From: Polyangiaceae bacterium
GTDB lineage: Bacteria > Myxococcota_A > Polyangia > Polyangiales > Polyangiaceae
Reading direction: 5' to 3'
DNA length: 34,331 nucleotides
Assembly (NCBI GenBank): GCA_020849655.1
Contig: JADLFU010000106.1
Location: forward strand, 1 to 34,331
Below, one piece after another: positions 9,900-26,281 of the stretch; within the stretch, counting starts at the first letter, position 1; each line of letters starts with the position of its first letter. A model generated the notes under the pieces. It saw only the letters and a program-made list of their open reading frames with translations, had not been told where the DNA came from and made no database searches. The position numbers were made by a program, and so were the translations under genes.

Positions 9900-10187
9900 G
9901 CCCGCGGCGCTCCGCAGCGCACCGAAGCCGTCTCGGTCGACGTTGGCACGGAGCCTCTGGACCGACGACAGCCGCAGGAGAGCGTCGAACAGCGCCCCGA
10001 CGGGCTCGTCCGCATCCCGCTGAAGCGCGCCTTGACGACGGCATCGTCGCCGTCGACATGGACCCGCTCTCGCTCGTCGCGCGCCTCGCCGCCGGCGTGC
10101 CGCCACCGAGGTTCCACACAGTCAAGTACGCCGGCCTGCTCGCGTTCGCGCACAGGTGGCGCGTTCGCATCGCGCCAGACAAGCGGC
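9900..10187 (+). pseudogene. IS91-family transposase C-terminal remnant
   Basis: The plus strand reads DGLVRIPLKRA (about 9990-10028) and, after a frameshift, DGIVAVDMDPLSLVARLAAG then VPPPRFHTVKYAGLLA. This is the conserved DG..alDmtP.ellaRLaalVPPPR.H.vrYhGvla block of IS91/ISCR-type (Y2) transposases. The catalytic tyrosine region lies earlier in the family and is missing. The fragment is cut at 10188, where the end of a second IS-like element begins. Confidence 0.75.
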
Positions 10188-10429
10188 TGGAGGTTCCGGA
10201 AATTCTGACACCTTCTTTCCGGAAAGTCTGAGCACCTCGTCGCTCCGCGCATCCTCGCCGACGGCCTCGTCCGCGGGCAAGTGCTTCGAGCGGACCGACG
10301 CAGGAGCTGTTCCGGCGTGGCCGGACACGCGCAGAGGTGCGTGGAGGATCTCGGCGTCATTCTGATTTCTCCTTTCGGGAGCGCTCAGATTTTCCGGAAC
10401 GGGAGCGCTCAGATTTTCCGGAACCACCA
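10188..10429. mobile_element. 242-bp miniature IS21-like element with inverted ends
   Basis: The left end reads TGGAGGTTCCGGAAATTCTG on the plus strand from 10188. The right end reads TGGTGGTTCCGGAAAATCTG on the minus strand from 10429. Each end has a second internal TTTCCGGAA repeat 20-25 bp inward, as IS21-type ends have multiple terminal repeats. Inside, 10321-10352 (plus) is an inverted copy of the IstA HTH-coding DNA at 10506-10537 (31 of 32 identical), and no functional gene remains. It looks like an internally deleted and rearranged copy. Exact family membership needs comparison with a full element. Confidence 0.5.
10351..10429 (-). repeat. IS terminal direct repeat, copy 1
   Basis: This 79-bp unit differs by one base from 10619-10697 and is in the same orientation. 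It contains two TCAGATTTTCCGGAA subrepeats and, on the minus strand, an AAAGGAG ribosome-binding site just before an ATG. In this copy the ATG is followed by rearranged sequence rather than istA. Confidence 0.8.
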
Positions 10430-10628
10430 CTCTCGCCCCGTCGTCGACGTCCGTGACCGCGACCTCGCGCTGCACGCGCCGCACCGTGGCGGGCGACACG
10501 CCCGCGAGATCCGCCACGCACCTCTGCGCGTGTCCGGCCTCGAGAAGCACCTGAACCTTGTGGCGTACGAGCAGGGGCAGCCTCTCGCTCCCCTGCTCCA
10601 CGCGCAGATCTCCGACCATCGGCGTCAT
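10430..10628 (-). pseudogene. IstA N-terminus of a truncated IS21-family element
   Basis: From the ATG at 10628, preceded by AAAGGAG (AAAGGAGAAATCAG-ATG), the minus strand encodes about 66 residues. They include LLVRHKVQVLLEAGHAQRCV and the HTH segment ADLAGVSPATVRRVQREV, which match IS21-family IstA N-termini. The frame then runs into another copy of the element's own left terminal repeat at 10429 (TGGTGG), so the rest of istA and istB is missing. This indicates insertion of, or recombination with, a second copy of the same IS. Confidence 0.7.
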
Positions 10629-10697
10629 TCTGATTTCTCCTTTCGGGAGTGCTCAGATTTTCCGGAACGGGAGCGCTCAGATTTTCCGGAACCACCA
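10619..10697 (-). repeat. IS terminal direct repeat, copy 2 (left end of the IS)
   Basis: This is identical to 10351-10429 except for one base (GAGTGCTC against GAGCGCTC). The minus strand reads TGGTGGTTCCGGAAAATC from 10697, starting with the TG dinucleotide expected of IS21-type tips. It is followed by a second TTCCGGAAAATCTGAG subrepeat, then the ribosome-binding site and ATG of the IstA remnant. The sequence immediately outside (10698 onwards) is a truncated methylase gene. Confidence 0.8.
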
Positions 10698-10787
10698 ATC
10701 GAGGACGGTGCGCGCGTCAGGGAGGGATCGGACAAGGCTGACGATCCCCGGGACGAGGACGCGCTTCGAGCCGATGTACTTGATCAC
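10698..10787 (-). pseudogene. First 30 codons of a Dam-type DNA adenine methylase, truncated by an IS
   Basis: From a GTG at 10787 the minus strand encodes VIKYIGSKRVLVPGIVSLVR then SLPDARTVLD. The KYIGSKR..L...I segment is the N-terminal SAM-binding lead-in of D12-class (Dam) N6-adenine methyltransferases, whose next residues would be a LFSGTG-type motif. Here the frame runs straight into the IS left end at 10697 (TGGTGG). No catalytic DPPY motif is found elsewhere in the window. The gene has been broken by the IS, and the distal part is lost or elsewhere. Confidence 0.65.
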
Positions 10788-10964
10788 CCCGTCATGTACC
10801 CGACGCGACGCTCCCCCGGCAAGGTCCGGTGGATGCGCTGAGGCTGACGCTGGACGCTCCCGGGATGCGCTTGGCCAAGGTGAGGTTCTTCTGGTCGTCT
10901 CCGCGGACACAAACCTATCCCTCTCACGCACGCTCGACCTCGCGCACCGAAGGGCGCGCGCTGG

Positions 10965-12512
10965 TCACCCGAGCGCCTGGGAGAGGACGGCGCCGACGGC
11001 GGGCGCGAGCACGAGGTGCCCCTGCTCGACGGTGATCAGCGCGGAAGACGCGTCGGGCGCGACGCCGACGTGCGACGCGACGCCCCTCGTCAGCCGGACC
11101 ACCGTGGTCCCGCGATCCTGGCGATCGAGCGCGTACGCCTCCTGCCCGATCTGCAACAGGAAGATCCTGCGCCGTGGGAACGACAGCGTCGAGCGCGCGC
11201 CGTCCTGGTCCACGTGCACGAGCTGGGGATCCGCCTCGTCGCGCCAGAACACGCAGCCCTCGCTCGCGGCGACCCAGGTAGCGCTGGCGAGGGGCGTGAG
11301 GAGCCGCGCGGAGCCGTCGCGCTTCGACACGAGGGCGATCCCCGAGGGTTGCTCGATCCTCATCGGGTCGGGCGGGCCGAGCGGCCAGCCGGGCACGACG
11401 AGCGCGGCGCCCGCGTCCACGAGCGCGCCCATCCCGGACTGCAGGGACGTGTCGGGCGTGAGCGACGTGATCTCGCCGGACGCCTTGTCGACGCGCCGCA
11501 CCCCGGCGCTCGTCGTGAAGTACACGTGGTCGGCGTCCTGGGTGACGTCGTGGACGCCGCGCATCCACGGCGCCCGGGCGACCGTCTTGGTCGCGCCGCT
11601 CCCGTCGCGAGCGAAGCGCTGCAGCGACGTCGCCGCGCAACAATAGACGTGCGTCGCGTCCACGAGGAGCGTGTGGTGCCCGCGGACGCTGTGCCGCGCG
11701 AACGCGCGGCCGCGCTCCCCGTCCGAGCACCAGATCACCCAGAGATCGTCGTCGGGGTTCGCCCCGAGCGACATCGACCCGATCAGGCCGTGCGCGTCGG
11801 CGTGGCTCCACGAGATCCGCGCGCCAGTGGCCCAGCGCTTCCCCTGTGCGTCGCGCGTGTGTCGGAGGAGCGCGGGCAGCCAGGACTTGTGGGCGTCCGG
11901 GGCCTTCTCGCGCTTCGGGCGCGCTTCGGGCGCGCTCGGTGCACGCTCGCGGGCGGGAGGCTTGCGCGACGGCGGCGTGCGCGGGGCCGCGCCGGGCGCC
12001 CAGTCATCGAGGGCGCACCAGTCGAGCGCGCTCTCCGACACGTCGACCTCGTCGGCGATCCGCGCGTCGCGCGTGAGGGGGCCGTCGATCCTACCGTAGG
12101 ACGCCCAGCCGGCGCGCGCCTCGCCGTACGCGTGGTCGACCCCCGTCACGTACGCGCGACGATCCGCGGGCGAGAAGAGCTCGGCGATCACCGCGTCGTC
12201 GCCTTCGTCCGCTGTCTCCCGCGTGAGCGCGACCTTTCGCCCGCGCCAGGCGAGCCGGCGGATCGACGCGAACCCCGCGGCGTCCTCGGTGATCACCACC
12301 ACCAGCTCGCCGAGCGCCCGGACCAGCTGCACCAGCGTGGCCTCGACGCCTCGCTCCCCGCAACCATGCAGGAAGAACCACCGGAGCAGGCGGGTGGCGC
12401 TGCGGTGGGTCTCCACGCGCACCCCGAGCGGGCCCGGGAGCGCGTCGCACGCCGCGACGATCGCGCGGGCTGTGATCGCCGCGGGTGCGGCCAGCATCGC
12501 GCGAGTCGTCAC
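10965..12512 (-). CDS. Unknown protein with propeller-like C-terminus, in the radical SAM operon
   Basis: This is a 515-residue protein. It begins at a GTG (12512) preceded by AGGAG six bases upstream. An ATG five codons later is an alternative. Residues 1-170 form an unrecognised mixed domain (for example RLLRWFFLHGCGERGVEATL). A charged Pro/Arg/Lys linker spans about 175-215. From about 220 to 510 there are repeated beta-blade-like segments: LLVDATHVYCCAATSLQRFA, DADHVYFTTSAGVRRVDKAS, ASEGCVFWRDEADPQLVHVD and GQEAYALDRQDRGTTVVRLT. These resemble DUF5050/YVTN-type propellers. There is no signal peptide, so it is probably cytoplasmic. It follows the radical SAM gene by 40 bp on the same strand and probably shares its transcript. 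Possible roles are substrate binding or scaffolding (inference). Confidence 0.75.
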   Translation of the reverse strand: MTTRAMLAAPAAITARAIVAACDALPGPLGVRVETHRSATRLLRWFFLHGCGERGVEATLVQLVRALGELVVVITEDAAGFASIRRLAWRGRKVALTRETADEGDDAVIAELFSPADRRAYVTGVDHAYGEARAGWASYGRIDGPLTRDARIADEVDVSESALDWCALDDWAPGAAPRTPPSRKPPARERAPSAPEARPKREKAPDAHKSWLPALLRHTRDAQGKRWATGARISWSHADAHGLIGSMSLGANPDDDLWVIWCSDGERGRAFARHSVRGHHTLLVDATHVYCCAATSLQRFARDGSGATKTVARAPWMRGVHDVTQDADHVYFTTSAGVRRVDKASGEITSLTPDTSLQSGMGALVDAGAALVVPGWPLGPPDPMRIEQPSGIALVSKRDGSARLLTPLASATWVAASEGCVFWRDEADPQLVHVDQDGARSTLSFPRRRIFLLQIGQEAYALDRQDRGTTVVRLTRGVASHVGVAPDASSALITVEQGHLVLAPAVGAVLSQALG

Positions 12513-12552
12513 ACGTGGCTCCTGGAGGGAGGGCGCCTCGACGCGGCGGAGG

Positions 12553-14223
12553 CTAGCCCTCGATCGGCCGCAGCTTCGCGAAGCCGTGCGCGCGGATCCA
12601 GTTGATGTGCATCCCGTCGCAGGTGGCCGTCTTCGCGCAGTCGCGGCAGCGCACGCTCTTCGCGAAGAACCGCGACTCGGCGTAGCGCGCGGCGTAGCGG
12701 GTCATGTCGATGCGCCCGTCGCCGCCGAGCATCTCCGCGTCGAGCCGCGAGCCCTGCGGCGAGGCGTCGCGACCCGAGAGGCACGGCGCCACGCCCTCGA
12801 CGCGAAACCCTCCGCGCAGCGTCGCGAAGAGCGCGGGCAGATCCACGTCCTCTGCCTTCGCCTCGGTCACGCGGCCGTAGGTCGGCTGCACGAGCACGTA
12901 GCGCGCGCCCAGCTCGCCCCGCGCCGTCAGCCAGGGCGCCGTGCTCGCGCACAGCCACACCGCGACCTCGATCGGCTCGGGCAGCCGGGAGAGCCGCTCG
13001 GCGTCGTCGGCCGTCCTCGCCACCACGCGCCGCACGGCGCCCGCCAGCGGCCCGCTCGTGAGCGCGGCGTCGAGGCCGTCCCAGGTGTCGAGCTCCAGCG
13101 ACACGCCGTCGTGCTCGGTCACCGCCGCGAGGCGCAGGGCGGCCGCGAGATCCGCCGCGCGGACGTCGAGCCGGCCCGCGCGCGGCAGCACGCCCGGCCG
13201 CGGCGCGGGCTCCCGCACCTCGACCACGTCGACGCGCTCGCTCTTGCGGCGGTCGATCACCTCGTCGAGCGTGTCGCAGAGGTTCTGCAGGTAGCACTGC
13301 GGACAGCGCTCGGGCTGGCGACAGTCGAGCTTCCTGCCGAGCGTCAGATAGCGGTCGTACTCCTCGCGTCGACCGCGCACCTCGTCGTTGAGTTTATAAG
13401 GATCCTGGATGAGGTGCTCGTAGCCCTCGGTGTACTGGGGGGGGAACCGGTTGAGCCACACGTGCACGTCGGGGCGGTTCGACAGATCGAGCGCGCGGCG
13501 GATGGCGGCGGCGATCTGCGGATCGTCGAGGTCGTAGAAGAGGTGGTGGCGCGCGTCCGTCCACGCGTTGCCGAACGGGATCACATGCAACAGATCGAAC
13601 TCGCGCACGCCCCACTCGAGGAACGTCTCCAGCATCTCGGGCAGCACGCGGACGTTCTGCTTGTTGATGACGACGTCGACGTTGACGATGACGCGCCCGG
13701 TGGCGAGCGCCGCCTTCAGCCCCTCGACCTCCTCGACGAAGGCGCCCGGCGTGCCGACGAGCGCGTCGTGCAGCTTCGCGGTGTGGCCGTGCAGCGAGAA
13801 GGTGATCTCGTCGAGGCCGTGCTCGAGCGCCTTCGAGAGGAACTCCGGGTACGCGAACATCCGCCCGTTGGTGACCGTCTGCACCTTGCGGTACCCGGCC
13901 CGCTTGCCGAGGCGCACGTACTCGAGGAACAGCGGGTTCATCGTCGGCTCGCCGCCGGAGAGGATGAGCCGGTCGGCGCCCTTCTTGCGGCCCTCGACGA
14001 TCTGCACGCGCACCTCGCGGTCGTCGCGCATCGTGCCGTCGTGCGCGTTGGAGTCGAGGCAGAACGTACAGTGGTTGTTGCAGTCGAAGCTGAGGCGCAC
14101 CCAGTTGCGCTTCTCGTGCGCGGCGTCCTCGTGGGCGTAGAGCTTCTGCTGCTCGTCGGCGCGCGTGGTGTCGGGGGCGGCGATCGGCAGGTGTCGCTTC
14201 GCCGTGGGGGCGGCCTGGGTCAT
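12553..14223 (-). CDS. Radical SAM protein with SPASM-like and extra C-terminal Cys motifs
   Basis: This is a 556-residue protein. The radical SAM core has C48-x3-C52-x2-C55 (CNNHCTFC), GGEP at 90-93, TNGR at 118 and the SLHG strand at 143. An auxiliary cluster region follows (C301, C307, C310, C316). After about 160 residues without recognised motifs there is PCLSG (C481) and a final motif with C526-x2-C529-x5-C535. That is enough cysteines for one or two auxiliary iron-sulfur clusters besides the SAM-binding one. The start ATG at 14223 overlaps the stop of the upstream radical SAM-methyltransferase gene as ATGA, so the two are translationally coupled. The enzyme class is clear. The substrate is unknown, and no small precursor-peptide gene is obvious nearby. 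Confidence 0.85.
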   Translation of the reverse strand: MTQAAPTAKRHLPIAAPDTTRADEQQKLYAHEDAAHEKRNWVRLSFDCNNHCTFCLDSNAHDGTMRDDREVRVQIVEGRKKGADRLILSGGEPTMNPLFLEYVRLGKRAGYRKVQTVTNGRMFAYPEFLSKALEHGLDEITFSLHGHTAKLHDALVGTPGAFVEEVEGLKAALATGRVIVNVDVVINKQNVRVLPEMLETFLEWGVREFDLLHVIPFGNAWTDARHHLFYDLDDPQIAAAIRRALDLSNRPDVHVWLNRFPPQYTEGYEHLIQDPYKLNDEVRGRREEYDRYLTLGRKLDCRQPERCPQCYLQNLCDTLDEVIDRRKSERVDVVEVREPAPRPGVLPRAGRLDVRAADLAAALRLAAVTEHDGVSLELDTWDGLDAALTSGPLAGAVRRVVARTADDAERLSRLPEPIEVAVWLCASTAPWLTARGELGARYVLVQPTYGRVTEAKAEDVDLPALFATLRGGFRVEGVAPCLSGRDASPQGSRLDAEMLGGDGRIDMTRYAARYAESRFFAKSVRCRDCAKTATCDGMHINWIRAHGFAKLRPIEG

Positions 14224-16013
14224 GGTGCGGTCCGTTCGTAGTGCAAGAGCCATTGGTTCGACGTCGTGGGGCCGACGTCGTCGCGGCGGAGGAGGGTGAG
14301 CGGGAGGTCGCGCGTCTGGGCGTGCGCGCGCGAGGCGTCGTCGTTGCGGCGGTGCTCGAGCCGCCCCGGGCCCTGCTCGGCGCGCGTCGCCTGGCGCCGA
14401 TCGCGCAACAGGCCGAACGCGACGTTGTCGACGAGCGTCAGCGTCCCGCCCGGGCGCAGGGCGGCCGCGAGCCGCTCGAGGACGAGGCGCGGGGACACGA
14501 GGTGGTTGTAGCTCCGTAGCACGAGCGCGTGATCGAGCGACGCGGGCGCGACGTCGAGCGCCTCGATCTCGGCCGCGACGAACCGCGCCCAGGGGTGCAG
14601 GCGCGCGAGGCGCTCGACCAGCGCGGCGTCGGGATCGACGGCGGTGTAGCGCACGCGCTCGTGCGGGACGGACGCGAGGTAGCGCCCCTCGCCCGCGCCG
14701 ACGTCGAGCACGTCGCCCGAGAGGCCGCGCAGGAGGGCGTGCACGGCCTCGTCGTCCCGCGTGAACACGTCGATCGGGAGCGGCCGGTAGCAGCCGGTGC
14801 ACACCGGGCGCGCCTCGCACGCGCGGCACTCGTCGAGCAACGCGAGCTTGCGCAGATCGGTCGAGAAATCGTCGGGCGCGAGCTTCCTCGAGACGTCGAG
14901 GTACACCTGCCCCTGCTCCTCCTTCGCGCGCAACAGCTCGACGTCGGCGAAATCGCGCGTCTCCGTCTCGTAGAGGCGCATGCGGTCGCGCAGCCGCAGG
15001 AACAGCGAGCGCCCGCGATCGTAGCTCGTCGTGCCGTCGGCCTTCACGGGGCACGGCGCGCCGGGCGGGCGGGCGACGTCGCGCGTGGGGACGAGGTTCC
15101 ACGAGTTGCTGCGCGTGCCCTCGACGCGCGGCGAGAGCAGCGCGGCGTCGCCGGGGTACGCGTCGAGGTACCCGCGAAACAGGCCGGGGCACGGGCCGCG
15201 CAGCGCACAACCCTCACATGCCTCGGGCTGGACCTTGATGACGTCGTCGACGGGGAAGAAATCTGGCTCGCCGACCTCGCTCATCGTCCGGAACGCGTTC
15301 GTGCGCAGATCGTCGTAGAGGTGCTCGAGGCCGGGCAGCAGGCAGAGCGGCACGCCGTCGTGCCCGAAGCGGGGCCCCGGCGCGTCGCCTCGCCGCTCGA
15401 TGCCGTGGCGCAGCGCCGCCGCGATCTCGGCGGCCACGACGTCGACCTTCTCGACGACGTGCTCGAACGTGCGCGCGCCGCCGCCCTTCGGCGCCGTCAT
15501 CGAGAGCTTCAGCGTGAGCTCGGGGAACGGCAGCATGAGCTCGACGAGGCGAGTCAGGTGCGCCGCGTTCGCGCGGGTGACGACGCAGTTGACGGTGAGC
15601 GTCGCGACCTTGCCGTGCAGCTCGCGCACGCCGCCGAGCGACTGCGCGAACGCGTCCGAGCGCACGAGGCTGTTGTGCGTCTTCGCGTCCGGCCCGTGCA
15701 ACGAGAGGTACACGTACGAGAGGCCGCGCTCGAGCATCGCGCGGGCGAACGCCGGATCGGAGAAGCGCCGGCCGTTCGTGATGAACCCGAGCCCGAGGCC
15801 GAGCTTCTTGACGTGGGTCGCCCACTCGACGACCTCGGGGCGGATGGTGGCCTCGCCGCCGGAGAACACGATCATCGTGTGCCCGAGCTGCCTCGCGCGG
15901 TCGATCTTCGCGTGGACGCTCGCGGACGTGTCGTCGATGTGCCGGACGTCCTGCGTGTGGCAGAACGTGCAGTGGTCGTTGCACGAATAGCCGACCTTGA
16001 TGAGCGCCTTCAC
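14220..16013 (-). CDS. Radical SAM / class I methyltransferase fusion protein
   Basis: This is a 597-residue protein. The N-terminal radical SAM core has C11-x3-C15-x2-C18 (CNDHCTFC), GGEA at 52-55 and TNGR at 79. It is followed by a Cys-rich region (C224, C266, C269, C275, C321) and a second one (C396, C399, C405, C408). Residues about 420-535 form a class I SAM-dependent methyltransferase domain with motif I DVLDVGAGEGRY (434-445), an acidic residue after strand 2 (TAVD, 457-460) and LRPGGTLTLVDNV (519-531). The methyltransferase appears to end with a basic tail. The GTG at 16013 was chosen for the GGAG six bases upstream and because the core starts there. A single polypeptide carrying radical chemistry and methyl transfer, coupled to another radical SAM enzyme, suggests sequential steps on one substrate (inference). 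Confidence 0.85.
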   Translation of the reverse strand: MKALIKVGYSCNDHCTFCHTQDVRHIDDTSASVHAKIDRARQLGHTMIVFSGGEATIRPEVVEWATHVKKLGLGLGFITNGRRFSDPAFARAMLERGLSYVYLSLHGPDAKTHNSLVRSDAFAQSLGGVRELHGKVATLTVNCVVTRANAAHLTRLVELMLPFPELTLKLSMTAPKGGGARTFEHVVEKVDVVAAEIAAALRHGIERRGDAPGPRFGHDGVPLCLLPGLEHLYDDLRTNAFRTMSEVGEPDFFPVDDVIKVQPEACEGCALRGPCPGLFRGYLDAYPGDAALLSPRVEGTRSNSWNLVPTRDVARPPGAPCPVKADGTTSYDRGRSLFLRLRDRMRLYETETRDFADVELLRAKEEQGQVYLDVSRKLAPDDFSTDLRKLALLDECRACEARPVCTGCYRPLPIDVFTRDDEAVHALLRGLSGDVLDVGAGEGRYLASVPHERVRYTAVDPDAALVERLARLHPWARFVAAEIEALDVAPASLDHALVLRSYNHLVSPRLVLERLAAALRPGGTLTLVDNVAFGLLRDRRQATRAEQGPGRLEHRRNDDASRAHAQTRDLPLTLLRRDDVGPTTSNQWLLHYERTAP

Positions 16014-16215: not shown

Positions 16216-17520
16216 TCAGAACGGGCAGGCGAACAGCCCCGGCTGACAGGAGCCGTTGAAGTCGGAGGTGCACGTGTACGGCGTCGGCGCGCAGTCCTTG
16301 CCCAGGCAGTCACAGGGCGCGCCGCACGCCTTGCCCTGGCACGCGCACGCCGCCCTCGCGTCGACGCAGGCGTCCATCGACTTGTAGAGTTTGTTGCAGT
16401 CGGGGCCCTGACAGGAGCAGCCGCCGAGACCCACACACTGCTGGCCGTTCCACGCGTACCCGAAGAAGAGAGCGCAGGGGCCCTGGCCCTCGGCCTTCAT
16501 CGCGTCGCACTTGGCGCCGCTGCACACTGGATCACCGAGGGTGCAATCGCCCGCCGCGTTGCAGGTGCCGGGCTTCGGCATGCAGCCGGGCGCGTCACAC
16601 ATGTACGTGCAGGACGCCCCGCACTGCGCGCCCGTGCACGAGCCGCTGGGCCCGGAGCAGACCGGGAAGGCGGGCCCGCACGAGCCCGACGCGCTACAGT
16701 ATTCGATCACCGGCGGGCAGGTGCTCCCCGGCGGGCAGTTGGAGCAGGTGTCTCCGCACGTCTTGCCGGCGCAGGGGCCGCCGGTCGAACACTGAACGTG
16801 CGCCTTCTCGCACTTATCGACGCTCGCGTACAGGGCGCCGCAGTCGGCGCCGAGGCACTGGCAGCCAGTGACGTTCTCGCACGCGTCCCCCGTCCACCGC
16901 ACCCCCAGGAGGCCGAAGCACAGGCCGTCGCCCTTGGCGTCCTGGGCGGCGCACGACACCGCGGGGCAGCCGCCGCCCGCGTCGAACACGCACACGCCCC
17001 CCACGCAGTCGACCGTCGGGCAGCTGACCGAGCCGTCGGGGCACTGCTGGCAGGGCGCGTCGAGCTGAGGACAGTCGCTGGCGGTCTTGCACATGGGGCC
17101 GACGCTGCAGGTGGGCTGGGAGGTCGTGCAGGTGCCCTGGACGCACTGCGCGGACGGGCAGGCGAGCGAGCCGTCGGGGCAGTGCTGGCAAGGCCCGACC
17201 GGACACTGCGCCGACGAGGTGCACTGCCAGGGCGTGCCGCCTGCGCTCCCGGCGACCCCACCGCCCCCGTGACCGGCGACCGGCGCGCCGCCGCTGCCCG
17301 CGACAGGCGCGCCGCCGCTGCCCGCGACCGACGCCCCGCCGCTGCCCGCGACCGACGCCCCGCCGTTGCCGGCGACCGACGCCCCGCCATTGCCGGCCAC
17401 GCCCGATCCGGAGCCGCTCGCTCCACCGGCGCCTCCTGCGGGCAGCTGGTCGACGACGGAGCCGCCGCAGGCGGCGAGGGGCAGCACGAAGGAGAGGCTG
17501 AGGAGGGTAGGGCGCAACAT
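16216..17520 (-). CDS. Cys-rich Gly/Ala-linker lipoprotein (paralogue of 3974-5221)
   Basis: This is a 434-residue lipoprotein with signal peptide and lipobox LAAC (Cys18). A linker of about seven VAGxGGAx repeats (about 35-95) is encoded by a tandem DNA repeat near 17260-17400. Next come CPDGS cysteine pairs and two copies of the module ending G..W.G..C....GC.C.G.DC..LY.....C (for example FFGYAWNGQQCVGLGGCSC). The order and spacing match the 415-residue protein at 3974-5221 closely throughout, including the C-terminal QPGLFACPF/QPGTFACPF. It lies 202 bp upstream of the radical SAM-methyltransferase gene on the same strand. Co-transcription is possible, but the paralogue has no such neighbour. 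Confidence 0.85.
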   Translation of the reverse strand: MLRPTLLSLSFVLPLAACGGSVVDQLPAGGAGGASGSGSGVAGNGGASVAGNGGASVAGSGGASVAGSGGAPVAGSGGAPVAGHGGGGVAGSAGGTPWQCTSSAQCPVGPCQHCPDGSLACPSAQCVQGTCTTSQPTCSVGPMCKTASDCPQLDAPCQQCPDGSVSCPTVDCVGGVCVFDAGGGCPAVSCAAQDAKGDGLCFGLLGVRWTGDACENVTGCQCLGADCGALYASVDKCEKAHVQCSTGGPCAGKTCGDTCSNCPPGSTCPPVIEYCSASGSCGPAFPVCSGPSGSCTGAQCGASCTYMCDAPGCMPKPGTCNAAGDCTLGDPVCSGAKCDAMKAEGQGPCALFFGYAWNGQQCVGLGGCSCQGPDCNKLYKSMDACVDARAACACQGKACGAPCDCLGKDCAPTPYTCTSDFNGSCQPGLFACPF

Positions 17521-17583
17521 GGCGACAGCGTACAGCAAGGACGACGCCAGCGCTGGATCGCTCGCGGGAGCGCGCTCCTTCGC

Positions 17584-17597
17584 GTGGCACATGGCAC
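17584..17597 (-). promoter_or_regulatory. Conserved motif upstream of Cys-rich lipoprotein gene B
   Basis: GTGGCACATGGCAC (plus-strand reading) lies 63 bp before the ATG at 17520. It is identical in sequence and almost identical in distance to the site upstream of the paralogue (5286-5299). The bases between motif and start are much less conserved than the motif, apart from a GCGTAC..GCAAG stretch nearer the gene. This favours a functional site. Confidence 0.45.
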
Positions 17598-17615
17598 AGC
17601 CACCCCCCGGCGCGA

Positions 17616-18092
17616 TCAGGGGTGGTGGTGCGCGCGGTGGGCGCGCCCGAGGCGGGTCGTGTCGACGCGCAAGCCGAACACCAGCGTGAACAGCCGCCGG
17701 CACGTCGCGTGGTCGATCGCGACGGGCTGGCAGAGCGCGGCGAGGGTGCGCGCCGCGTCGTCGTGGGCGAGCTTCTTCGCCATGTCGAGCGCCTCCAGCC
17801 GCTGCCCCGCCGAGTCCTCGTCGAGCGATCCGAGGCGCCGGCAGACCGCCTCGTACTCGTCGAGGTGGCGGCGAAGACTGGCATCAGAGACGGGCGTCCG
17901 CGCGAGCGCCTCGCCGCCGCGCAGCCAGACGAGCAACAAGCCATCGGGCGCGACGTCGACGAAGAGCGCGAGGGTCGACGGATCGGCCGCGTCGACGTCC
18001 TCGACGAGCGCCTGGATGGCGAGGCGCCGCTCGTCGAGGCGAGCCGCGTCTGCCGCCGCGAGCGCCGGGTGCAGATCGACGCGCCCGATCAC
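17616..18092 (-). CDS. UPF0262 family protein
   Basis: This is a 158-residue protein matching the UPF0262 family in its whole C-terminal half. It shows the long helix ending EALDMAKKLAHDDAARTLAA, then IDHATCRRLFTLVFGLR, equivalent to the family's IEAIDMGRRGlHNEg...vDfdTARRLFTLiCvL. Function is unknown for the family, which was named from alphaproteobacterial genomes. The GTG at 18092 overlaps the P450 stop codon as GTGA and gives the family's N-terminal IxxIdld start (VIGRVDLHPAL). The longer frame is less likely. The protein is probably cytoplasmic and co-translated with the P450. Confidence 0.8.
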   Translation of the reverse strand: MIGRVDLHPALAAADAARLDERRLAIQALVEDVDAADPSTLALFVDVAPDGLLLVWLRGGEALARTPVSDASLRRHLDEYEAVCRRLGSLDEDSAGQRLEALDMAKKLAHDDAARTLAALCQPVAIDHATCRRLFTLVFGLRVDTTRLGRAHRAHHHP

Positions 18093-24237: not shown

Positions 24238-24413
24238 ACGAACGGCGCGAGCGGCGCGACCGTGTTGATGACCCAGAGCAGCGCGGAGCCGATGAGCAGG
24301 TACATCACGAACGGGATGAACGCGCCGAGCCGGTGATCGCGCAGCGCCCCGAGCGTGCGCGTGGAGGTCTTCGAGATGACGACGAGGCCCGAGTACCAGC
24401 GGCGGCGGCTCAT
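24222..24413 (-). CDS. DUF5989 family small membrane protein
   Basis: This is a 63-residue peptide with a basic N-terminal half (MSRRRWYSGLVV) and a single C-terminal membrane helix ending APLAPFVYSLF, the hallmark ending of DUF5989. In many genomes DUF5989 peptides sit next to NodU/CmcH-type carbamoyltransferases. Here the ATG overlaps the carbamoyltransferase stop as ATGA. It probably tethers or regulates that enzyme at the membrane (inference). Confidence 0.8.
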   Translation of the reverse strand: MSRRRWYSGLVVISKTSTRTLGALRDHRLGAFIPFVMYLLIGSALLWVINTVAPLAPFVYSLF

Positions 24414-26281
24414 GACTGTTTCCACACGAGTGTATCGTTCAACACGAGGCTGTCCATGTCCGTCCGCGCGAACATGCTGAGCGCCTCGGCCGGCGTCTGC
24501 ACGATCGGGTACCCGCTCGCGTTGAACGAGGTGTTCAGCACGGCGCCGAGGCCGAGGCGCTCGCCCACCTCCGTCAGGAGCGCGTGGTACGCGGGGTTCT
24601 CGTCGGCGTGGCAGATCTGCACGCGGGTCGAGCCGTCGACGTGCACCGCCGACGCGAGCCTCGGGCGGGCCTCCTCGCGCACGGGCACCGCGACCTGCAT
24701 CCAGCGGTTCATCCGCGCCTGATCGGGGGTCAGATCGACGGCGCGCGGGGCGTCCTCGCTGGTGATGGAGAACGCGTAGGGTCGGAACGGCGCGCGGTCC
24801 TTCACGTGTCGGCTGAGGCGCGTCGCCAGGGCCGTGTCGTCGGGCCGGATGAGGATCGACCGGTTGCCGAGCGCGCGCGGGCCGAGCTCGGCGCGCCCGC
24901 GGTACCACCCGACGATCTGCCCCGCGACGAGGCGCTCGGCGACCGCCCGCGCGAGCGCCGCCCGGTCGTCGAAGGACTGGTGCTGGAGGCGCGCGCCCGA
25001 CGTCGGGCGCTCGAGGCCGCGCTTCAGGTACTGCAGCACGTGCTTCGGATCGAGGTGGTCGAGCATCGCGACGTCGTCGGCCTCGTCGAAGGCGGCGCCG
25101 ACGTACGGGCCGTACGGCATCTCGGCGGGCGCGCCGTGCCCCGCGAGCGCCGACGCGTAGAGCGCGACCCCGACCGAGGTGCCGCCGTCGCCGGGATCGG
25201 GCGGGATGAACAGCCGCTCGAAGGGGGAGCGGGTCATCAGCTCGTAGTTCGCGACGCAGTTGAGGCTGACGCCGCCGGCGAAGCAGAGGTTCTTCGAGGG
25301 CACCTTGGCGTGCAGCTGCCGCGCGAGCCCGAGGATGCGCTCCTCCAGCACCAGCTGCACGCTCGCCGCGACGTCGGCGAAGCGCTGCATGTCGGGGCTG
25401 ATCTCGCCCGGCTCCCCGAAGCAACTGAACGGCAGCTTGTCGCGGAAGTGCCGCGGCGGGCCGAACACGTCGACGAACCGCTGCGTGAACGCGCCCTTGT
25501 AGAAGTTCGCGAAGTTGAAGTAGCGCTGGTCGACCTCGTACGAGTCGTCGTCGAGCGCGCGCACGATCTCGCGCACCCGGTCGGCGTAGACGGGCCTGCC
25601 GAACCCGCCGAGCGCCATCGTGCTGCACTCGCTGTCGTTGGGCGTGAACCCGAGGAACGCCGTGAACGCCGAGTACACGAGGCCGAGCGAGTTGGGAAAG
25701 GCGACCTCGACGACGCGCTCGACGACCGGCTTGCCGTCGCGCCACGCGCCCGAGTACATCGCCGAGCACGCCCAGTCGCCGACGGCGTCGACGATGAGGA
25801 TGGCGGCCTCGTCGAAGCCGGAGCCCATGAACGCCTGGACGGCGTGTGAGAAATGATGGCTGAGGTAGCCGATCTTCTCCGGGCCGACGTCGAGCCGAGA
25901 AGAGATCTGGTTCAGCGACCAGAGCTTGCGCCCGAGCCACGCCTTCAGCGAGTTGACGAACTCGAGCCGCGACGACGGGAAGGGCGCGAGCACCGTCGTC
26001 AGCACCCGCGCGAACTTCACGTGCGGATCCTCGTGGAACACGACCTGATCGAGCTCGTCGGGGCGGACCTTCGCGACGTCGAGCACGTACTCGATCGCGT
26101 ACGTGGGGAAGTTGGCGTCGTGCTTCTGCCGCGTGAAGCGCTCCTCGGCCGACGCCGCGACGACCTTGCCGTCGACGACCAGGCACGCCGACGAGTCGTG
26201 GTAGCCGTACGACACGCCGAGCACGCGGTGCGGCGCGCGCCCCGTCACCTCGTCGACCGGGGCCTCTCTCACGCGGACCAC
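24410..26281 (-). CDS. Carbamoyltransferase (NodU/CmcH family)
   Basis: This is a 623-residue protein. The N-terminal Kae1/TobZ-like domain (about 20-360) has GYHDSSACLV, the metal-binding SHHFSHAVQAF histidines, VDAVGDWACSA and CFAGGVSLNCVAN. The C-terminal domain (about 430-620) has GWYRGRAELGPRALGNRSIL, PFRPYAFSI and LNTSFNASGYPIVQTP. These enzymes form carbamoyl-adenylate from carbamoyl phosphate and ATP and O-carbamoylate a hydroxyl of a sugar or natural product. Lacking a biosynthetic cluster, the acceptor here is unknown. The GTG at 26281 directly follows the ferritin-like stop, with AGAGG seven bases upstream. The gene is the middle of a three-gene operon. Confidence 0.93.
   Translation of the reverse strand: MVRVREAPVDEVTGRAPHRVLGVSYGYHDSSACLVVDGKVVAASAEERFTRQKHDANFPTYAIEYVLDVAKVRPDELDQVVFHEDPHVKFARVLTTVLAPFPSSRLEFVNSLKAWLGRKLWSLNQISSRLDVGPEKIGYLSHHFSHAVQAFMGSGFDEAAILIVDAVGDWACSAMYSGAWRDGKPVVERVVEVAFPNSLGLVYSAFTAFLGFTPNDSECSTMALGGFGRPVYADRVREIVRALDDDSYEVDQRYFNFANFYKGAFTQRFVDVFGPPRHFRDKLPFSCFGEPGEISPDMQRFADVAASVQLVLEERILGLARQLHAKVPSKNLCFAGGVSLNCVANYELMTRSPFERLFIPPDPGDGGTSVGVALYASALAGHGAPAEMPYGPYVGAAFDEADDVAMLDHLDPKHVLQYLKRGLERPTSGARLQHQSFDDRAALARAVAERLVAGQIVGWYRGRAELGPRALGNRSILIRPDDTALATRLSRHVKDRAPFRPYAFSITSEDAPRAVDLTPDQARMNRWMQVAVPVREEARPRLASAVHVDGSTRVQICHADENPAYHALLTEVGERLGLGAVLNTSFNASGYPIVQTPAEALSMFARTDMDSLVLNDTLVWKQS

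Follow-up and report, generated by a model that had tools for sequence, protein, structure and literature searches.

Two coupled radical SAM genes from a Polyangiaceae bacterium belong to a variant His-Xaa-Ser system with a candidate target domain in Myxococcota surface lipoproteins

Introduction

The His-Xaa-Ser (HXS) system of Haft and Basu, which is named in passing in PMC9062424, consists in its classic form of HxsA, HxsB, HxsC and HxsD. HXS family models have existed for years, and no product was found in the papers searched. NCBIfam already includes models for HXS, HxsD-like and HxsC4 proteins; its curators have therefore met some of what is described below. Two other described systems bear on this work. 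In the MYXO-CTERM/myxosortase system, many Myxococcota surface proteins share one C-terminal tag, made of a short motif and a transmembrane helix and cleaved by an intramembrane protease, and phylogenetic profiling links the tag to its enzyme (PMC11980579). The copper site of the metal-binding protein MopE contains an oxidised Trp, kynurenine (PMC3423442). Our search of PMC found no described link between radical S-adenosylmethionine (rSAM; SAM or AdoMet for the cofactor) enzymes and Myxococcota C-terminal domains, and HXS was mentioned there only in passing.

Here we analyse a stretch of 34,331 nucleotides, called the window throughout, that spans positions 1 to 34,331 of contig JADLFU010000106.1 (contig C106 in our numbering) of a Polyangiaceae bacterium. 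The source genome is a 6.56 Mb draft of 307 contigs with 45 rSAM matches. The subject is a pair of minus-strand rSAM genes, gene 1 (P0001) and gene 2 (P0002), whose membership in a variant HXS system of Myxococcota is strongly supported by the results below. A C-terminal domain of secreted lipoproteins, here named the GCEC domain, is the candidate target of that system.

The rSAM gene pair

Gene 1 (14220-16013, minus strand) has a GTG start and encodes 597 residues comprising an HxsC-like rSAM domain, a second four-Cys module and a C-terminal class I SAM methyltransferase domain (14223-14744; Pfam Methyltransf_11/25/12). Gene 2 (12553-14223, minus strand) has an ATG start and encodes 556 residues, an HxsC-like rSAM domain with two further four-Cys groups. 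Pfam, NCBIfam, the orthologs and a tree all bear on these assignments. The two proteins matched the rSAM family PF04055 at 60.4 and 60.8 bits against a gathering score of 29.5, and their AdoMet-cluster motifs, C11-x3-C15-x2-C18 in gene 1 (15960-15983, minus) and C48-x3-C52-x2-C55 in gene 2 (14059-14082, minus), are invariant. Each protein has 11 fully conserved Cys residues, arranged 3 + 4 + 4, in 23/23 orthologs of gene 1 and 13/13 of gene 2, and each is predicted to hold one AdoMet cluster and two auxiliary clusters. In gene 1 the predicted auxiliary [4Fe-4S] sites are C224, C266, C269 and C275 (15189-15344, minus) and C321, C396, C399 and C405 (14799-15053, minus). The predicted auxiliary sites of gene 2 are C301, C307, C310 and C316 (13276-13323, minus) and C481, C526, C529 and C535 (12619-12783, minus). 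The ORF (open reading frame) coordinates place an ATGA stop/start overlap, indicative of translational coupling, at 14220-14223 on the minus strand. An earlier sequence-only reading of this DNA had noted the overlap, the rSAM-methyltransferase fusion with a second rSAM enzyme beside it, and two CxxxCxxC cores with at least four more Cys groups. All three observations are confirmed, the last because each rSAM protein keeps one CxxxCxxC and two groups of four.

To place the enzymes, NCBIfam profiles and an rSAM-domain tree were used. The best profiles were HxsC4 (NF038332), at 80.6 bits for gene 1 and 112.7 bits for gene 2, and HxsC (TIGR03977), at 67.2 and 80.7 bits, all far under the curated cut-offs of 500 and 267.9. 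In the tree, gene 1, gene 2, HxsC4 and HxsB formed four separate clades, each with 100% bootstrap support; the deeper joins are unreliable because of long branches, and classic HxsC, MoaA and several rSAM proteins of the gene islands described below were unreliably placed. Genes 1 and 2 share with HxsC4 and HxsC a similar C-terminal C..C....C-G motif, but differ from them in forming distinct clades that carry extra modules. With these fully supported clades they form two new rSAM families beside HxsC4/HxsC. Neither tree nor NCBIfam tied gene 1 or gene 2 to a characterised rSAM subgroup, a result that would have counted against the sequence-only reading. That reading had also found no named pathway to fit. 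For pyrroloquinoline quinone (PQQ), mycofactocin, heme d1 and MoaA this was correct: the PqqE, MftC, NirJ and MoaA models all scored far below cut-off for both genes, and these four pathways are rejected for genes 1 and 2. No NifB family was among the best 25 matches listed for either gene. The reading was not correct for HXS, a named but biochemically uncharacterised family that does match the set.

Full-length orthologs of gene 1 were found in other genera at 46-86% identity. In a set of 59 genomes, all 27 that have gene 1 also have gene 2. Both genes are present in 17 genomes of the same family, and in 11 of these they are adjacent (the source genome, G001, G002, G004, G007, G015, G022, G029, G031, G033 and G034). 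In three more, G016, G017 and G024, the gene 1 rSAM domain is followed by gene 2 in a single protein; the G024 fusion was checked directly, and its residues 1-308 match gene 1 and residues 299-840 match gene 2. Further, several relatives encode the second half of gene 1, with the Cys module and the methyltransferase, as a gene of its own, in some directly before gene 2. These arrangements support the view that the products of genes 1 and 2 serve as rSAM enzymes in one and the same maturation system.

A variant HXS system

The neighbours of gene 1 orthologs identify that system. Against the respective cut-offs they include HxsD (67 bits, cut-off 50), an HxsD-like protein (72, cut-off 41), HxsB (584, cut-off 370) and HxsC4 (602, cut-off 500), together with a peptide beta-hydroxylase of the alpha-ketoglutarate (aKG) HExxH type (93, cut-off 40). 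Gene calls in these neighbourhoods were our own, and gene starts there are approximate. The order gene 1-HxsD-HxsD'-HxsB, where HxsD' is the HxsD-like protein, recurs at loci L037, L038, L042, L044, L045, L039 and L040. A second recurring order is a ClpB-like gene (so named on our own recognition of the sequence), a gene called F4, a short rSAM-like gene, a lipoprotein gene, HxsD, HxsD' and HxsB. In other families gene 1 orthologs are surrounded by rSAM-rich islands, such as the one in G048 (L047-L050, G048:C1:405001-485000), with about a dozen rSAM-type genes within ~50 kb. The G048 island also holds a cobalamin-type and HxsC-like fusion, proteins with two rSAM motifs, phytanoyl-dioxygenase-like genes, a methyltransferase and proteins with a GYPxCCVEA motif.

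The variant system is made up of HxsB (rSAM/SPASM), HxsD, the ~74-residue HxsD', HxsC4 and genes 1 and 2. Many genomes add further HxsC-like rSAM proteins, a cobalamin-type rSAM protein and the aKG-HExxH hydroxylase, and the number of additional rSAM genes can reach about a dozen. Its layout is compact in some genomes and scattered in the source genome, where HxsB (TIGR03978) is outside the window at C178:27099-28502 (538 bits against 370), HxsD (TIGR03976) is at C60:23445-23705 (68.7 against 50), HxsD-like (NF038315) adjoins it at C60:23885-24067 (57.2 against 41), and HxsC4 is on contig C222. The sequence-only reading saw no partner because the HXS parts are spread over C60, C178 and C222; its proposal that three genes of the window form the whole operon is not supported, HxsB, HxsD, HxsD', HxsC4 and others being on different contigs.

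Co-occurrence points the same way. In the 59 genomes the HxsD-like gene is found in 28; gene 2 is present in all 28 and in two more (30 genomes), and gene 1 in 27 of the 28. The genomes with only classic HXS (G020, G021 and G041) have no HxsD-like gene, no gene 1, no gene 2 and no full-length GCEC match. G020, from the same family of organisms, served as a control: its classic locus (L094, G020:C7:266001-286000) is intact, with HxsD, HxsB, an HxsC-like gene and an HxsA of seven HxS triplets that carries HRSHRSHQSHRSHSSHYS. A protein with at least four HxS triplets was not found among the called genes of C60, C178, C222, L044 and L045, the part of the data to which the search was confined.

The variant system resembles classic HXS in that HxsB and HxsD score over cut-off, rSAM enzymes are paired, and a presumptive substrate gene lies just upstream of hxsD, so that the lipoprotein-HxsD order mirrors HxsA-HxsD. 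It differs in that no HxS-repeat HxsA was found at the variant loci examined, in the extra HxsD-like protein, HxsC4 and genes 1 and 2, and in its putative target, a lipoprotein domain of ~165 residues.

The GCEC domain

Many islands have a lipoprotein gene upstream of HxsD or close to it, and its product often bears Cys repeats like those of MopE. These lipoproteins have in common a C-terminal domain of ~165 residues, the GCEC domain, whose alignment has C1, C6, GCEC, C95 and C162 as invariant positions and C32, W114 and V151 as near-invariant ones, numbered after its first row. Sequence searches with the domain gave no match in Pfam, NCBIfam or PDB. In every assembled hit the domain is followed by 0-13 residues before the C-terminus, except in L098, where there are 58. 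The N-terminal parts that precede it vary greatly in length and in type of repeat, and the positive genomes of the 59 have one to seven copies each. A shallow AlphaFold model (pLDDT 58.6, pTM 0.61) resembled the collagen-binding/PPC beta-sandwich, the collagen-binding domain (CBD) of ColG being the best match for a model of this low pLDDT (Z 10.3, root-mean-square deviation 2.5 Å, 103 aligned residues). The Cys-rich first 27 residues fall outside the match.

There is also a likeness to MopE-type proteins (PF11617). A GCEC lipoprotein of L045 has the MopE motif and others have similar CNGxDDDC repeats, whereas the GCEC domain itself matches no Pfam family. Like MYXO-CTERM, the GCEC domain is a many-to-one C-terminal feature of Myxococcota surface proteins that phylogenetic profiling connects with enzymes. 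Unlike that short motif and helix, it is a Cys-rich domain, which we describe as folded, and it is tied to rSAM enzymes.

Because the GCEC domain was found by proximity to the islands, its distribution across genomes is a fair test of association. Full-length hits were obtained in 29/30 gene-2-positive genomes and in 0/29 gene-2-negative genomes of the 59-genome set. A search of 284 Myxococcota genomes gave 92 with both domain and gene 2, nine with the domain only, three with gene 2 only and 180 with neither (Fisher 1e-59, uncorrected for descent); with the members of the first set left out, the counts over the remaining 260 genomes were 81, 9, 3 and 167. In the 284 genomes the domain (101 genomes) and the HxsD-like gene (95) coincide in 90, and each of the 38 genomes with gene 1 is domain-positive. 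In the sample of family f1, about half of which is negative, nearly all genomes were concordant, the exception being G002, an 80% complete draft. Further, 20/29 genomes have a GCEC gene no more than 12 kb from a core gene, against 0.55 expected, as do 10/20 genomes that contributed no seed sequence, among them G001, which is closely related to a seed genome.

Proposed target and competing explanations

These data suggest that the target of the variant system is probably the C-terminal GCEC domain of secreted lipoproteins and not an HxS-repeat HxsA. Gene anatomy, conservation, fusion, gene order and co-occurrence are established by the results above; for the physical interaction, target residues, chemistry and order of steps we infer the following course. 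In the cytoplasm, HxsD and HxsD' would recognise and bind the GCEC domain of the lipoprotein precursor while the domain is still unfolded. HxsB, HxsC4 and the coupled gene 1 and gene 2 enzymes would then install radical modifications on conserved residues, the invariant Cys and the near-invariant Trp being the candidates, and the methyltransferase domain of gene 1 would add a methyl group. Genes 1 and 2 may be coupled in dose and perhaps act in sequence. The modified lipoprotein would then be exported and lipidated.

Several observations weigh against this proposal. The proximity count is biased because the seed alignment of the domain came from the islands, and shared descent makes the cross-genome correlation look stronger than it is. 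Of the nine genomes with the domain and no gene 2, five keep the HxsD-like gene and four have neither. Gene 1 is present in only 38/101 domain-positive genomes and is thus not obligatory. The window itself contains no GCEC match. Finally, F4 is a recurrent competing candidate for the substrate.

In the explanation built on this last point, the substrate is another member of the variant HXS system, F4 or an overlooked short peptide, and the GCEC lipoproteins are receptors or carriers that serve the same physiology and are co-inherited for that reason. Ten members of the first island set have F4, and the next gene downstream of it is an rSAM gene in contig C60 of the source genome and in G015, G033, G034, G007 and G024. 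The GCEC pattern is that of a target, however: one to seven dispersed paralogs with diverse N-termini and a common C-terminal domain suggest many substrates for one system, and we consider a substrate other than the GCEC domain unlikely. F4 proteins are roughly 190 residues in size, with a range of about 130-250, most with an RR-type (twin-arginine translocation, TAT) signal and with no strong family match. They usually directly precede a short, sometimes motif-less rSAM-like gene and could be a second substrate or a scaffold; examples recurring in islands are L045:13088-13678 (minus), L040:6872-7474 (minus) and L075:1983-2366 (plus).

The G048 island, with its many rSAM genes, cobalamin-type rSAM protein, methyltransferase and dioxygenase-like genes, would also suit the manufacture of a small diffusible cofactor, comparable to PQQ, mycofactocin or heme d1, with the GCEC lipoproteins as binding apoproteins. 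But HxsB scores as a peptide maturase and is accompanied by HxsD and HxsD-like proteins, and no named cofactor pathway among the matches listed reaches cut-off for gene 1 or gene 2, which makes this account quite improbable. That genes 1 and 2 are a stand-alone pair for natural-product tailoring, linked to HXS by shared descent only, accords with the absence of HXS genes from their contig in the source genome, but is hardly credible, and was already disfavoured, in view of their direct adjacency to HxsD, HxsD' and HxsB in other families and the phylum-wide co-occurrence.

Modification of the GCEC domain thus remains the preferred explanation. Whether it extends to a new phylum-wide class of post-translational modification, in which an HXS-derived multi-enzyme rSAM machine would modify the GCEC domains of several unrelated surface lipoproteins per genome and so make a metal-active, redox-active or cross-linked module, we regard as an even bet. 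None of the sources searched (NCBIfam, Pfam, PDB and PMC) describes the gene 1 and gene 2 families, the GCEC domain or their connection. The variant HXS system and two new rSAM families are now tied to a concrete candidate target domain, found in surface proteins of about one third of the sampled Myxococcota genomes, and mass spectrometry of a surface lipoprotein now offers a direct test of the role of the HxsB, HxsC and HxsD enzymes. Unexpectedly, the results suggest that extracellular protein domains, and not small peptides, undergo the radical modification.

The third gene and other features of the window

The pair is adjoined by an orphan ORF of 515 residues, P0003 (10965-12512, minus strand), separated from gene 2 by the 40 bp that the sequence-only reading had given. 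That reading took its product for a substrate-binding partner, which is not supported. P0003 has no ortholog in 58 related genomes, the same genus included, and it matched no Pfam and no NCBIfam family; a single-sequence structure model reached a pLDDT of 36.8 and was uninformative about the propeller-like fold that the reading had suggested. At the same-genus locus L029 another gene, not a counterpart of P0003, comes after gene 2. Because orthologs are absent from the 58 relatives and a different gene occupies this place in L029, P0003 is ruled out as a partner and is a bystander outside the system. Of the proposed three-gene maturation set, then, the two rSAM enzymes stand as members of one system and stay together in relatives, while the third gene does neither.

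About 200 bp upstream of gene 1, on the same strand, is a gene for a putative lipoprotein rich in Cys, Gly and Ser (16216-17703, minus). It was considered as a substrate and rejected, since it belongs to no Pfam family, has no GCEC match and is not a neighbour in L029.

Downstream of P0003, an 82-bp direct repeat, 98% identical (10351-10432 and 10619-10700), flanks a short ORF with a helix-turn-helix (HTH; 10122-10628, minus). At 10677-10931 (minus) is what appears to be the truncated start of an adenine-DNA methylase gene, recognised by eye and with no Pfam hit. The repeats, the HTH ORF and the methylase fragment are probably remnants of a transposable element. Upstream of the pair on the same strand is a cytochrome P450 gene (18089-19555, minus; PF00067, 239 bits), for which the relatives gave no hint of a link with the rSAM pair. 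An intact carbamoyltransferase gene (Carbam_trans_N and _C) is located at 24410-26281 on the minus strand.

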